Part shown: positions 10,446 through 62,772 of the stretch, piece by piece
Layout of the letters: each line of letters begins with the position of its first letter
Position numbering within the stretch: position 1 is the first letter of the stretch
Assembly (NCBI RefSeq): GCF_018417635.1
Contig: NZ_CP071007.1
Location: 2,108,501 to 2,172,500, forward strand
Direction: 5' to 3'
Length of the DNA: 64,000 nucleotides
DNA from: Pseudomonas sp. SORT22
Lineage (GTDB): Bacteria > Pseudomonadota > Gammaproteobacteria > Pseudomonadales > Pseudomonadaceae
The notes under the pieces: generated by a model
Told to the model about the DNA's origin: nothing
Databases searched by the model: none
What the model saw: the letters and a program-made list of their open reading frames with translations, nothing else
Translations under genes and position numbers: made by a program

Positions 10446-10512
10446 CGTGTTCCCCTTCAAGGACTTTCTATTAAATAGCCATCTCTCAAGAAAGAGAAAC
10501 TGGCCGGCGTAC

Positions 10513-10540
10513 ATAGTACCCATTACTTGTAGTAAGTAAA
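10513..10540 (-). promoter_or_regulatory. Candidate sigma-70 promoter of oprI
   Basis: On the minus strand TTTACT (10535-10540) and TACTAT (10513-10518) are separated by 16 bp. They lie about 70 bp upstream of the oprI start, giving an untranslated leader of roughly 60 bases. Read by eye only. Confidence 0.5.
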
Positions 10541-10952
10541 CTGACAGAGCGCAAGAACTGCAAAAAAATGCGCCTGTCCCGGGTCCGCCACAGCCTTATG
10601 TAGAAAAACTGTGAAGGCGCCGCATGCGCGGGTGCTAACAAGTGTAGCAAGTGTGTAATTTGTTGAACTAAAAGTGACTTAAAGTGTCATCCTTCGTCAT
10701 AGCACTACAACATCCGGCAACTGTTCAGGCCGATGCTCGCCGCCGTGTCCGCTTGCCACAAGTGGGTGAAATTTGCGACCAGCCACCTTGAGCATCCGGG
10801 CATCGGGCGCCTACTATTTGTACGTGCTCATTTGCCAGAGAACAGCCATGCTCTTCTCGTTGTCCAATGGGGCACGGGGTGGCGTAGAGGTTCCTTCGCC
10901 GGACAAACATCGGTAAGGTAGGGTCATAGCACAAGACCCGCGAGGAGTAGTG
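10541..10952. other. 412-bp divergent intergenic region with hairpin potential
   Basis: This gap lies between the oprI promoter and the GNAT-like gene. I find no credible ORF. Possible structure near the right-hand gene includes TTGTCC (10859-10864) facing GGACAA (10901-10906) and GGGTC...GACCC (10921-10939) just ahead of the ribosome-binding site. These could form a structured 5' leader. No known riboswitch class is recognised. Confidence 0.4.
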
Positions 10953-60061: not shown

Positions 60062-60304
60062 TCATTCGTCAGGTTGAAACTTGCGGCGTCCGATGATCAG
60101 CGTCGTACCTGCGCAGAATACGAGCACAGGCACTAGGAACAGATCCATTGCCTCCCAATAGCTACCACCCGGTTTGAACAGTAAAGTAATACCTGCAGCC
60201 CATAGGAACAACCCTAGCCATTTACGAATCAGGTAGGGCTTCAGGCAGTGATCCAGAAAGGCGATGAGGATCAACGCGTAACATAGCTGGGTAACTTCAG
60301 ACAT
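60062..60304 (-). CDS. Y-family small membrane protein, copy Y3'
   Basis: An 80-aa protein not recognised from any named family. It has a hydrophobic N-terminus (TQLCYALILIAFLDHC), the core LKPYLIRKWLGL, a second segment (about 32-44), a third (about 55-72) and a basic tail GRRKFQPDE. It is about two-thirds identical to Y2' at 60902 by eye. It follows Y3 after 14 bp. A three-helix inner-membrane protein is likely; an immunity-like role is only a guess from the repeated array. Confidence 0.7.
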   Translation of the reverse strand: MSEVTQLCYALILIAFLDHCLKPYLIRKWLGLFLWAAGITLLFKPGGSYWEAMDLFLVPVLVFCAGTTLIIGRRKFQPDE

Positions 60305-60318
60305 GATGTGTGCTCTGC

Positions 60319-60558
60319 TCAGCCATGCTCTAGGTACTTGCGTCGTGTCATGAAAAGCGCACCGCCGGCTCCAGATATGCAGATGGCGATGAATTCGATG
60401 TCCAATGAACCTGCCCGGGTAGGGAGCAGGTAGCTGGCAATCGTGCCGCCGAAAAACAGTACGATGCCACAGCGCTTTCGTAGGCGATAAGGTTTGACTA
60501 AGAAGTACAGCAGGTAAAATAGAATCAAGAGGATTGTGTACTGAAGATACTCATTCAT
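60319..60558 (-). CDS. Y-family small membrane protein, copy Y3 (divergent)
   Basis: 79 aa, the most divergent of the five Y copies. VKPYRLRKRCGIVLFFGG corresponds to the LKPYxLRKWLG core, and TRRKYLEHG to the basic tail. The DNA is more AT-rich than the window average. Its ATG overlaps the end of the broken X3 reading frame (CCATGA), the coupling seen for intact X-Y units. Confidence 0.68.
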   Translation of the reverse strand: MNEYLQYTILLILFYLLYFLVKPYRLRKRCGIVLFFGGTIASYLLPTRAGSLDIEFIAICISGAGGALFMTRRKYLEHG

Positions 60559-60742
60559 GGGGCCAGACCTGCGGTCGGTATGATTATCGAATCAGCTGAA
60601 AATTGTGGGCCGATGCCCCCGTCAACACGAGCCTCAATGCTTATGATCAGGTTCCGCGATCACCCTCCGTAACAACGAACTTGGAAACATAGAAAACTAT
60701 TCCGTGAGGACCGGCGTACTCATAGGTTTTTTCTATCTGCAC
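60555..60742 (-). pseudogene. Internally deleted X-family copy (X3 remnant)
   Basis: From the GTG at 60742 the frame reads MQIEKTYEYAGPHGIVFYVS..., clearly the start of an X protein, but reaches TGA at 60647-60649 after 31 codons. Immediately after, in another frame, comes SIEARVDGGIGPQ, the X C-terminus, running to 60555. About 120 internal codons are missing, with a frameshift at the junction. The copy is non-functional as an X protein, while the downstream Y genes stay intact. Confidence 0.8.
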
Positions 60743-60875
60743 AACAACCCTCCCTGTGTAATACAGACGTGCCAGGCGCACCTCATCATTGACGTGCAGG
60801 GAAAGATGCCCATATCAATTTCGGGCGTTTGCCGTATTGCTCCGGCATGAAGGTAGGACCGATCCCAAATTAGCG
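60711..60875. repeat. Direct repeat copy 1 (X-gene start and upstream region)
   Basis: This 165-bp stretch is repeated at 61858-62019 with a few substitutions and one 3-base insertion (ATTGAC versus GAC). It covers the first codons of X, the GGGAGGG ribosome-binding site and about 130 bp upstream, ending CCCAAATTAGCG. Confidence 0.9.
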
Positions 60876-60901
60876 GATGACGGTCTGTCGAAGAGGCTCT
60901 C

Positions 60902-61153
60902 TCATTCGCCCCGTTGAAACTTTCGACGTCCCTTGACCAGAGTCATGCCCGCGAATAGTACGAACAAAGGGAACAGTTTCAGATTCAACTCATGCCAATA
61001 GAGGCCGCCCGGCACAAACTGCAATGTAACGGCGGCTATCATCAACGCCAGGCCCAGCCATTTGCGGAGTAAATAGGGTTTAAGGCAATGATCCATAAAT
61101 GAAATCAGGATCAGTGCGTAGCACAGTTGGGTAACGTCAGACACGAGTGGCAC
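60902..61153 (-). CDS. Y-family small membrane protein, copy Y2'
   Basis: 83 aa from a GTG directly after the Y2 stop, with AGGA seven bases upstream; a second GTG at 61144 would give 80 aa aligned to Y3' (SDVTQLCYALILISFMDH). It carries LKPYLLRKWLGLAL and the tail KGRRKFQRGE. It is the closest relative of Y3' in the next unit, so the Y' position is conserved between units. Confidence 0.7.
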   Translation of the reverse strand: MPLVSDVTQLCYALILISFMDHCLKPYLLRKWLGLALMIAAVTLQFVPGGLYWHELNLKLFPLFVLFAGMTLVKGRRKFQRGE

Positions 61154-61396
61154 TCAAGCGTCCTCATCGAATCGATTACGTCTGAAGAACAACTCCACGC
61201 CACCGAGAATCGCAAAAAGTGCAATAAGGTGCAGGTCGACGTCGAGCCAGTAGCTGCCTTCCAACGTGAATCTACCGATAAGGCCGCCGAGCAATAACGT
61301 CAGGCTTAACCATTTTCGGAGTGTGCTGGGTTTGAGCCGGCGCTCGACCACAACAAAGATGAAGAAGGCGATGAATAGCTGGCTGAATTCTGCCAT
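61154..61396 (-). CDS. Y-family small membrane protein, copy Y2
   Basis: 80 aa: hydrophobic start (SQLFIAFFIFVVVERR), core LKPSTLRKWLSLTLLLGG, and a tail with RRNRFDEDA. It starts 7 bp after the X2 stop and abuts Y2'. The G+C looks close to one half by eye (32 of 60 in the line at 61201), below the window norm. Confidence 0.7.
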   Translation of the reverse strand: MAEFSQLFIAFFIFVVVERRLKPSTLRKWLSLTLLLGGLIGRFTLEGSYWLDVDLHLIALFAILGGVELFFRRNRFDEDA

Positions 61397-61403
61397 GGCG
61401 TCT

Positions 61404-61889
61404 TCAACCTTGATTCTTGATGATCATTGAGGACGCTGATCGTTGGGGGCCGATACCCCCACTGACAGATGCCTGGATGCTGACAATTATGTCGCCGGAA
61501 TGATAAATCGGTAGGTGTGGTTCGGTGAGGGAGGCAGCGGCGGATCCAACGAGGGATCCGAAAACTGGCGTTAGGAGCAGAGTGGCGGCGCCCCCAAAGT
61601 AACCTCCGATGACAGCGATTACGTCAAAGCGCTGACTGTTCAATCTATCCGCCTGCTGACGGCTCAACGCTCGAGAAACAGCGACTCTCATCTCACAAAC
61701 ACGATTACCGGCCTGCATTCTGTCGTATAGCGCCACCAGCATTGTGTTGACTTGATAGTGTGCCCCCTTCGCCTCGCTGATATGCAACTCGCGCAGCCTC
61801 GTGCGATCTTCCGGCAGGACCACAATTTGCGAGACGTGGAAAACGATGCCGAAGTTGCCGGCGTACTCATAGGTTTTTTCGATCTGCAC
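61404..61889 (-). CDS. X-family uncharacterised protein, copy X2
   Basis: 161 aa, no named family recognised. The GTG at 61889 with AGGGAAGG upstream aligns with the X1 start (MQIEKTYEYAGNFGIVFHVS); the frame is open to 61928. Conserved with X1: RLRELHISEAKGAHYQVNT, a middle SRALSRQQADRLNSQR, a Gly/Ala-rich hydrophobic stretch (about 98-122) and the C-terminus YHSGDIIVSIQASVSGGIGPQ. No signal peptide is seen. Such a central hydrophobic stretch could insert in a membrane; the function is unknown. Confidence 0.72.
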   Translation of the reverse strand: MQIEKTYEYAGNFGIVFHVSQIVVLPEDRTRLRELHISEAKGAHYQVNTMLVALYDRMQAGNRVCEMRVAVSRALSRQQADRLNSQRFDVIAVIGGYFGGAATLLLTPVFGSLVGSAAASLTEPHLPIYHSGDIIVSIQASVSGGIGPQRSASSMIIKNQG

Positions 61890-62019
61890 AACAACCTTCC
61901 CTGTGTAATACAGACGCGCCAGGCGCACCTCATCGACGTGCAGGGAAAGATGCCCAAATCAATTTCGGGCGTATGTCGTACTACTCCGGTATCAAGGTAG
62001 GACCGATCCCAAATTAGCG
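61858..62019. repeat. Direct repeat copy 2 (X-gene start and upstream region)
   Basis: 162 bp matching 60711-60875. The copies are 1147 bp apart, the length of one X2-Y2-Y2' unit, as expected for a tandem duplication. Confidence 0.9.
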
Positions 62020-62037
62020 ATCAGCCCCAGGAAACGC

Positions 62038-62280
62038 TCAGCCAACCGGCGCAAACCGACGACGTTTGAGGAACAGCCCTACACCCAGGGCGACGGCGAA
62101 GATCGACAGCAGCCCCAGGTCGGCCCCCAGCAGGCGGGCCTGGCTTGCCGCTACGCAGCCGACCGCGCCAGCGGCCACCAGCGCCAGGCCCAGCCACTTG
62201 CGCAGCGGGTAGGGCTTGAGAAAGCGATCAAGCAAAAAGAACAGCACCAGGGCCAGAACCAGCTGGGTAATCTCGGACAT
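62038..62280 (-). CDS. Y-family small membrane protein, copy Y1
   Basis: 80 aa from ATG 62280 (MSEITQLVLALVLFFLLDRF) with GGAG seven bases upstream; a GTG at 62292 is in frame. It has the core LKPYPLRKWLGLALVAAG and tail KRRRFAPVG. Unlike units 2 and 3, this one has a single Y gene, and its base composition is like the chromosome average. It follows X1 after the X1 stop with 12 bp. Confidence 0.72.
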   Translation of the reverse strand: MSEITQLVLALVLFFLLDRFLKPYPLRKWLGLALVAAGAVGCVAASQARLLGADLGLLSIFAVALGVGLFLKRRRFAPVG

Positions 62281-62292
62281 GTGCGGCTCCAC

Positions 62293-62772
62293 TCAGGTCT
62301 TGATGATCAGGGTCGAAATGGTGCTTTGCGGGCCGATGCCGCCGTTGACCCGCGCTTCAATGCTGACCAGCACGTCGCCGGCATGGTAGGTGGGCAGGAT
62401 TTCGTTGGCGTACATGCGCACACCGGCACCCACCGGGACGCCGACATAGGGCGAGGCGACGGAACTGGCGGCGCCGGCGAAGGCCGAGGCGGCGAGGTTG
62501 GCGACCTTGGTGCGCTGGGCATTGAGCACGTCGCCCTGCTGGCGGGTCAACGGCTTGGAGATGCCGATCATCATGGTGCACGGCAGGTTCTTGGCGAGCA
62601 TCTTGTCGTAGACCTCGACCACCTTGCTGTTCACTTCATAGTGAGCGCTTTTCGCTTCGCCAAAATGCAGCTCACGCAGGCGCCCGCGTTCGCTGTCGGT
62701 GAGGGTGATCTGCGAGACGTTGAAGACGATCCCGTGTTGGCCCATGTATTGGAAAGTCCCTTCGAACTTCAT
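62293..62772 (-). CDS. X-family uncharacterised protein, copy X1
   Basis: 159 aa from ATG 62772 (MKFEGTFQYMGQHGIVFNVS), with AAAGGA upstream. Shared X features: RLRELHFGEAKSAHYEVNSKV, KPLTRQQGDVLNAQR, a hydrophobic Gly/Ala/Val-rich segment (about 92-122) and YHAGDVLVSIEARVNGGIGPQ. It has no signal peptide. It is G+C-rich like normal chromosomal genes and is probably the ancestral copy of the array. Confidence 0.75.
   Translation of the reverse strand: MKFEGTFQYMGQHGIVFNVSQITLTDSERGRLRELHFGEAKSAHYEVNSKVVEVYDKMLAKNLPCTMMIGISKPLTRQQGDVLNAQRTKVANLAASAFAGAASSVASPYVGVPVGAGVRMYANEILPTYHAGDVLVSIEARVNGGIGPQSTISTLIIKT

Follow-up and report, generated by a model that had tools for sequence, protein, structure and literature searches.

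Tandem genes for a predicted small type VI secretion effector and its predicted membrane immunity protein in Pseudomonas sp. SORT22

Introduction

A 64,000-nucleotide stretch of Pseudomonas sp. SORT22 (contig NZ_CP071007.1, positions 2,108,501 to 2,172,500; here called the window) carries on its minus strand a tandem array of two families of small genes, which we call X and Y. Across Pseudomonas a Y gene without a working X is common, while an intact X without a Y is almost absent, and in a few genomes the pair lies directly behind hcp, a gene of the type VI secretion system (T6SS). X is probably a small, membrane-active T6SS effector that is carried by Hcp, and Y its immunity protein.

T6SS effectors that are small and act on membranes are few and, because they are without catalytic motifs, hard to recognise. 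The X family is common in Pseudomonas, compact, and unnamed in the libraries searched.

Organization of the array

Read 5' to 3' on the minus strand, positions 60062–62772 of the window contain X1, Y1, X2, Y2, Y2', a broken X3, Y3 and Y3'. These form three units: X1-Y1, X2-Y2-Y2', and Y3-Y3' behind the deleted X3. An earlier note on this DNA had described seven intact genes and one remnant in three units, and the array is exactly in place, with all gene positions in agreement. The features, in guanine plus cytosine (G+C) content, nucleotides (nt) and residues where given, are as follows.

62293..62772, minus strand: X1, 159 residues, predicted small T6SS effector, high-G+C copy
62038..62280, minus strand: Y1, 80 residues, predicted membrane immunity protein
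61404..61889, minus strand: X2, 161 residues, GTG start, second predicted effector, 48% identical to X1
61154..61396, minus strand: Y2, 80 residues, predicted immunity protein adjoining X2
60902..61144, minus strand: Y2', 80 residues, GTG start, extra predicted immunity protein
about 60576..60742, minus strand: X3 remnant with a broken frame and no hairpin, ~30 codons of the N-terminus and ~25 of the C-terminus left
60319..60558, minus strand: Y3, 79 residues, intact predicted immunity protein beside the broken X3
60062..60304, minus strand: Y3', 80 residues, extra predicted immunity protein
61803..62019, minus strand: leader and first codons of X2, repeated at 60656–60875 over X3

In X3 only profile positions 2–30 and 134–158 remain, in two frames, and everything between them is lost, including the whole of the hairpin described below. 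A leader and first codons of ~220 bp are common to X2 and X3 (90 nt at 91% and 132 nt at 80%), which demonstrates duplication. The gaps between genes are 12 nt for X1-Y1, 7 nt for X2-Y2, 9 nt for Y2-Y2' and 14 nt for Y3-Y3', and co-translation of X and Y is plausible. The units from X2 to Y3' have a G+C content of about 49–54%, compared with 63–66% for most of X1-Y1 and 56–66% for the flanks; this difference of ~10 points from X1-Y1 suggests that these later units have an origin elsewhere. The array is flanked by a lipoprotein-like gene (assigned by eye, with a weak Pfam match) and a gene with two ATP-binding cassette (ABC) ATPase domains.

A chance arrangement is excluded, as other Pseudomonas have X and Y in the same order. 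Y2' is 92% identical to a Y of P. rubra (locus L086) and Y3' is 94% identical to a Y of P. wadenswilerensis (L085). The matching site in both of these species contains X1, Y1, X2 and four Ys, and that of P. donghuensis contains X1, X2 and then two Ys. The array thus turns over among close relatives.

X and Y form a pair with one-sided dependence

Among 80 named loci with 76 full-length X genes, 74 of these genes are followed by an open reading frame (ORF) with at least two hydrophobic segments that starts between −30 and +60 nt from the X stop, compared with 18 of 378 control genes from the same loci. The exceptions are L153 (the same place as L053), where Y was missed by the hydropathy threshold, and X1 of P. 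donghuensis. A larger survey of 398 Pseudomonas genomes covered 136 X loci, with one place (G006:C93, L304) left out, and 33 stretches around Ys far from any X, two of which lie near contig ends and one of which, L281, held a broken X. The in-frame-deleted X copies L076 and L241 were not counted as intact. In this survey a Y-like gene lies directly downstream of 104 of 105 intact X genes, 103 of them recognised by profile and one, a divergent multi-helix ORF, by hydropathy. The sole intact X without an adjacent Y is again that of P. donghuensis, whose array still has two Ys. X and Y therefore do not occur independently of each other in the sense that, according to the earlier note, would speak against its interpretation.

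The converse does not hold, as an intact Y is found beside 34 of 38 broken X genes, at least 26 intact Ys in the fetched stretches have no X match, and 18 further intact Ys sit in arrays. The asymmetry is 60 Ys without a working X (with the lone Ys counted as at least 26) against one X without Y, giving P = 5.7e-10 in a binomial test that allows X a twofold hit rate for its double length and treats loci as independent, which they are not fully. Y is thus often kept without a working X but an intact X almost never without Y, the one-sided relation that a toxin and its protector would be expected to show.

Lone Ys are still under purifying selection, though less strongly than paired Ys. The median ratio of nonsynonymous to synonymous substitution rates (dN/dS) to the nearest usable relative is 0.40 for Ys beside a broken X (n = 33) and 0.41 for Ys without X (n = 26), values that include the time before X was lost, compared with 0.27 for paired Ys (n = 111). 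The corresponding value for X is 0.19 (n = 98).

Linkage to hcp and the T6SS

Using the Hcp of the window's genome as a tblastn query, we found hcp directly upstream of X and in the same orientation in four loci, L202, L254, L266 and L061. In the first three the match to PF05638 is far above the cut-off (E-values of 1.5e-35, 6.1e-34 and 1.8e-35 respectively), while in L061 hcp is interrupted. This hcp-X-Y order in four genomes favors a T6SS effector over an intracellular toxin-antitoxin pair. The window's genome has two sheath-gene loci, and no hcp was found by the window's array. Among genomes with an X match, 91 of 92 encode a sheath gene (31 of 31 from a 149-genome sample plus 60 of 61; p 0.001), compared with 135 of all 149 sampled genomes, and X is found in none of the 14 sheath-negative genomes (p 0.03); these statistics ignore phylogeny.

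Features of the X protein

Full-length homologues of X1 in Pseudomonas are 79–91% identical to it. In 29 aligned X sequences the invariant residues, the start aside, fall within positions 55–87 and 132–149, the second block containing the motif GGIGPQ. The AlphaFold model of X consists of five strands and four helices, with one long helix entering a hydrophobic hairpin at residues about 77–125. Among 98 non-identical X sequences that are paired with Y, residues 89–125 are the most variable part, with a mean pairwise identity of 34%, compared with 58% for residues 1–88 and 67% for residues 126–159. Per sequence, the longest run without any Asp, Glu, Lys or Arg has a median length of 25 residues, half of which are Gly, Ala or Ser, and its hydropathy is moderate, unlike that of a typical permanent membrane helix.

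Searches of Pfam and NCBIfam with X gave no family above the cut-off, and PADLOC and PHROGs gave nothing better than an E-value of 0.2. A match of X or Y to a known housekeeping family, the other finding that the earlier note had set against its own proposal, was likewise absent above cut-off. Membership of DUF6861 (PF21724) was considered and rejected, as X1 and X2 have no match at E-values up to 1; among 10 distant relatives two scored 26.1 and 24.4 bits, over the hairpin only and below the Pfam cut-off of 28 bits. A 624-residue open frame at L050 reads as a chance upstream extension of X.

The Y protein and the DUF1493 branch

The other Ys of the window are 33–43% identical to Y1. The model of Y1, a weak single-sequence model with a mean predicted local distance difference test (pLDDT) score of 68.6, places three helices at residues 3–21, 27–51 and 55–76. 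In one branch of X, mostly beside pckA, the Y membrane domain is followed by a C-terminal DUF1493 (PF07377) domain, which was found in both of the long Ys scanned (36.6 and 31.9 bits, against a cut-off of 21) and by Pfam in none of the five Ys of the window. Loci of this kind include L063–L071 and L073–L075; PEPCK and DUF6124 were found among the neighbor proteins, and a Fic-type gene and a DUF6124-like gene were noted beside these loci by eye.

DUF1493 was also matched in 12 plasmid records, three of which were opened. L296, on a P. savastanoi plasmid (NZ_CP032458.1, 5628–6999), contains an Hcp gene, an unannotated ORF of ~140 codons with a hydrophobic stretch, and a DUF1493 gene, and looks like a further cassette of hcp, effector and immunity gene; its small ORF is not matched by the X profile. 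In L297, on a Cronobacter plasmid, the DUF1493 gene lies beside Rhs and DUF1795 genes of the opposite strand, and at the DUF1493 place opened on a Serratia plasmid (L298) there is no T6SS gene. That two of the three places opened have T6SS surroundings is a lead, not a test.

Co-variation and joint replacement of X and Y

Across 15 loci with a long Y, the Y membrane domain follows the X hairpin with a rho of 0.79; the values for the X N-terminus and the DUF1493 domain are 0.39 and 0.18 respectively. When the N-terminus is taken into account the partial correlation between the Y membrane domain and the X hairpin is 0.85, with a permutation p of 0.0005.

L202 and L254 were compared at another site. 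Per 75-nt segment, their DNA identity is 96–100% over hcp and the start of X (its first ~58 codons), only 44–79% over Y and the remainder of X, and again 93% or more further downstream. Y was therefore exchanged together with the second part of X. L266, a third genome at this site, is of the L254 type throughout.

Distribution

X matches were found in 31 of 149 sampled Pseudomonas genomes and in 92 of 398 in the larger draw, with up to six matches per genome, fragments included, in varied gene surroundings. The organism names among the X homologues and loci listed are Pseudomonas. A family-wide sample gave an X match in 14 of 248 genomes, from three of 19 genera; outside Pseudomonas one genus has a full X-Y pair and another a distant X relative. 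In an order-wide sample of 194 genomes from 96 genera X was found only in the window's own genome. A distant X relative in another genus, at L299 (G588:C12:130000-146000), consists of two consecutive X-like ORFs, of which the longer has GGIGPQ, and the profile search found no Y there.

Elsewhere in the window, positions 10482–10616 on the minus strand match Rfam RF01669, the Pseudomonas small RNA (sRNA) P14, with 97.7 bits.

Discussion

The earlier note had suggested that the array recalls effector-immunity or toxin-antitoxin arrays, and this is supported by the lack of a housekeeping match and by the one-sided dependence of X on Y. Between these, a membrane-damaging effector carried by Hcp is the best single explanation, in view of the hcp link, of how small X is and of the membrane location predicted for Y. 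X would enter a rival cell within the Hcp tube, and there its central glycine/alanine-rich hairpin would insert into the inner membrane and depolarise it. Y, a predicted three-helix membrane protein, would bind the hairpin and so shield the producer and its kin. The window's array could then be a small armoury of two complete effector genes and five immunity genes, in which some Ys may have been kept after the loss of their effector, or were never paired here, and could guard against relatives that still use it. Toxicity, pore formation, delivery, Hcp binding and neutralisation through binding by Y are inferred.

A broader proposal, on which the evidence seems to us evenly balanced, is that X and Y are a polymorphic and hitherto undescribed set of Hcp-loaded Pseudomonas membrane toxins and protectors. 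In these a constant N-terminal delivery part would be joined to a hairpin part that can be exchanged together with the matching immunity gene, so that lineages could swap toxin specificity in one recombination step. Old immunity genes would be hoarded, and one branch would have a two-part protector fused to DUF1493.

Several observations weigh against the effector interpretation. The four hcp-X-Y loci are one lineage, because all have the same upstream neighbor, and no hcp was found in the other 133 of 137 X loci by tblastn with one Hcp and flanks that were often only 1.3 kb. Forty ORFs taken from around the two sheath-gene loci of the window's genome match only one of 120 X loci, and the co-occurrence of X with the T6SS is weak evidence because the T6SS is so common in the genus. 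One genome, G383 (locus L208), is rated 100% complete and has intact X and Y with no detectable sheath gene (PF05943). The protein itself gives further grounds for caution: in the AlphaFold model hairpin residues 93–122 have pLDDT under 50, the fold search gave no match, and the hairpin is moderately hydrophobic, with a median best 19-residue Kyte-Doolittle mean of 1.23 and only eight of 98 sequences reaching 1.6. In the 15 long-Y loci the X C-terminus tracks the Y membrane domain as well as the hairpin does (rho 0.78), and across all 98 pairs the Y distance correlates with the X N-terminus, hairpin and C-terminus at r 0.91, 0.89 and 0.84 respectively, so that the hairpin is not singled out. 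Finally, four of 38 broken X genes have no Y, and among the matches listed there are seven partial Y matches in six loci without X, so Y also decays.

The strongest alternative is that X and Y are an intracellular toxin-antitoxin or phage-defense pair, in which a membrane-damaging X is restrained by Y and freed by stress or phage, and lone Ys serve as anti-addiction modules. This predicts the same asymmetry between X and Y, would be at ease with G383, and draws some support from the pckA-site branch, which lies beside an apparent Fic-type gene identified by eye; the SoFic model matched one of 100 neighbor proteins. When these 100 proteins were searched with PADLOC 32 families were matched, and none of the 25 listed was found in more than one neighbor. 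The array was rejected as a known anti-phage defense family, as none of the seven window proteins matches a PADLOC model at E-values up to 1, and hcp directly upstream of X in four genomes speaks against a toxin-antitoxin pair. In systems of interbacterial conflict it is usual for the toxin gene to come first, for surplus immunity genes to be present and for part of the toxin to be swapped jointly with its immunity gene, as seen for X and Y. We regard the intracellular pair as unlikely.

More doubtful again is an antibacterial toxin X with immunity protein Y that leaves the cell by another route, such as contact-dependent inhibition, release by lysis or another secretion system. The many X loci at which hcp was not seen would be expected, as would G383, and at L060 an X-Y pair lies just downstream of an apparent contact-dependent toxin region identified by eye. 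This region contains, again by eye, small genes after the toxin region and a transposase fragment. X has no leader peptide or fused delivery domain apparent by eye, however, and the hcp-X-Y order speaks for the T6SS. Very improbable is the idea that X and Y together form an ordinary membrane complex, for transport or the envelope, whose two subunit genes were duplicated by happenstance; short gaps, constant gene order and purifying selection on both genes would suit it, but the patchy distribution in differing genomic surroundings, the retention of Y beside broken X and the diverged copies side by side do not.

If X and Y are an effector and its immunity protein, their natural variants, in one branch of which the hairpin and the Y membrane domain co-vary, provide a ready cross-immunity matrix from which the recognition of membrane toxins by membrane immunity proteins could be learned.

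Relation to known systems

As they are described (PMC6889166, PMC12669606, PMC12169545), Ssp6, Ssp4 and Tse4 are close in kind to X. Ssp6-Sip6 of Serratia marcescens resembles X-Y in having a small effector, a tiny membrane immunity gene directly downstream and a patchy distribution (PMC6889166). The Sip6 gene is 204 bp with two predicted helices and a four-nucleotide overlap, Ssp6 is in some cases encoded at an orphan hcp locus, and the authors describe its delivery as probably Hcp-dependent (PMC6889166). In that account Ssp6 is reported only from Enterobacteriaceae (PMC6889166), whereas the X matches found here come from Pseudomonas and two more genera of the Pseudomonas family.

Ssp4-Sip4 is similar in that its loci are often far from T6SS genes, with some beside hcp or vgrG, and in having a membrane immunity protein, and the Ssp4 family has a Pseudomonas branch (PMC12669606). 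In the paper Ssp4 is modelled with 13 helices, one sheet and at least three membrane helices (PMC12669606), compared with the four helices and five strands of the X model, and we rejected X as a member of that family. In addition, 95% of the Ssp4 homologue hits cover over 200 residues and Sip4 has four predicted helices (PMC12669606), while the X proteins of the window have 159 and 161 residues and Y has three predicted helices. Tse4 of P. aeruginosa, with its immunity protein Tsi4, is of similar size to X at 19.2 kDa; it associates with Hcp1 and depolarises membranes, and Tsi4 is located in the inner membrane (PMC12169545). Tse4 is described with several predicted transmembrane regions (PMC12169545), while X has one weakly hydrophobic hairpin.

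A parallel to the array itself is found in the orphan immunity arrays of Vibrio cholerae, in which effectors are displaced, immunity genes stay and arrays build up (PMC5361080). The V. cholerae arrays are described in the 3' region of T6SS clusters (PMC5361080), while that of the window lies between its lipoprotein-like and ABC ATPase genes; the X3 remnant with intact Y3 and Y3', together with the extra Ys, fits the same model. The array would also document, at a place outside T6SS clusters, how immunity genes survive the loss of their effectors.

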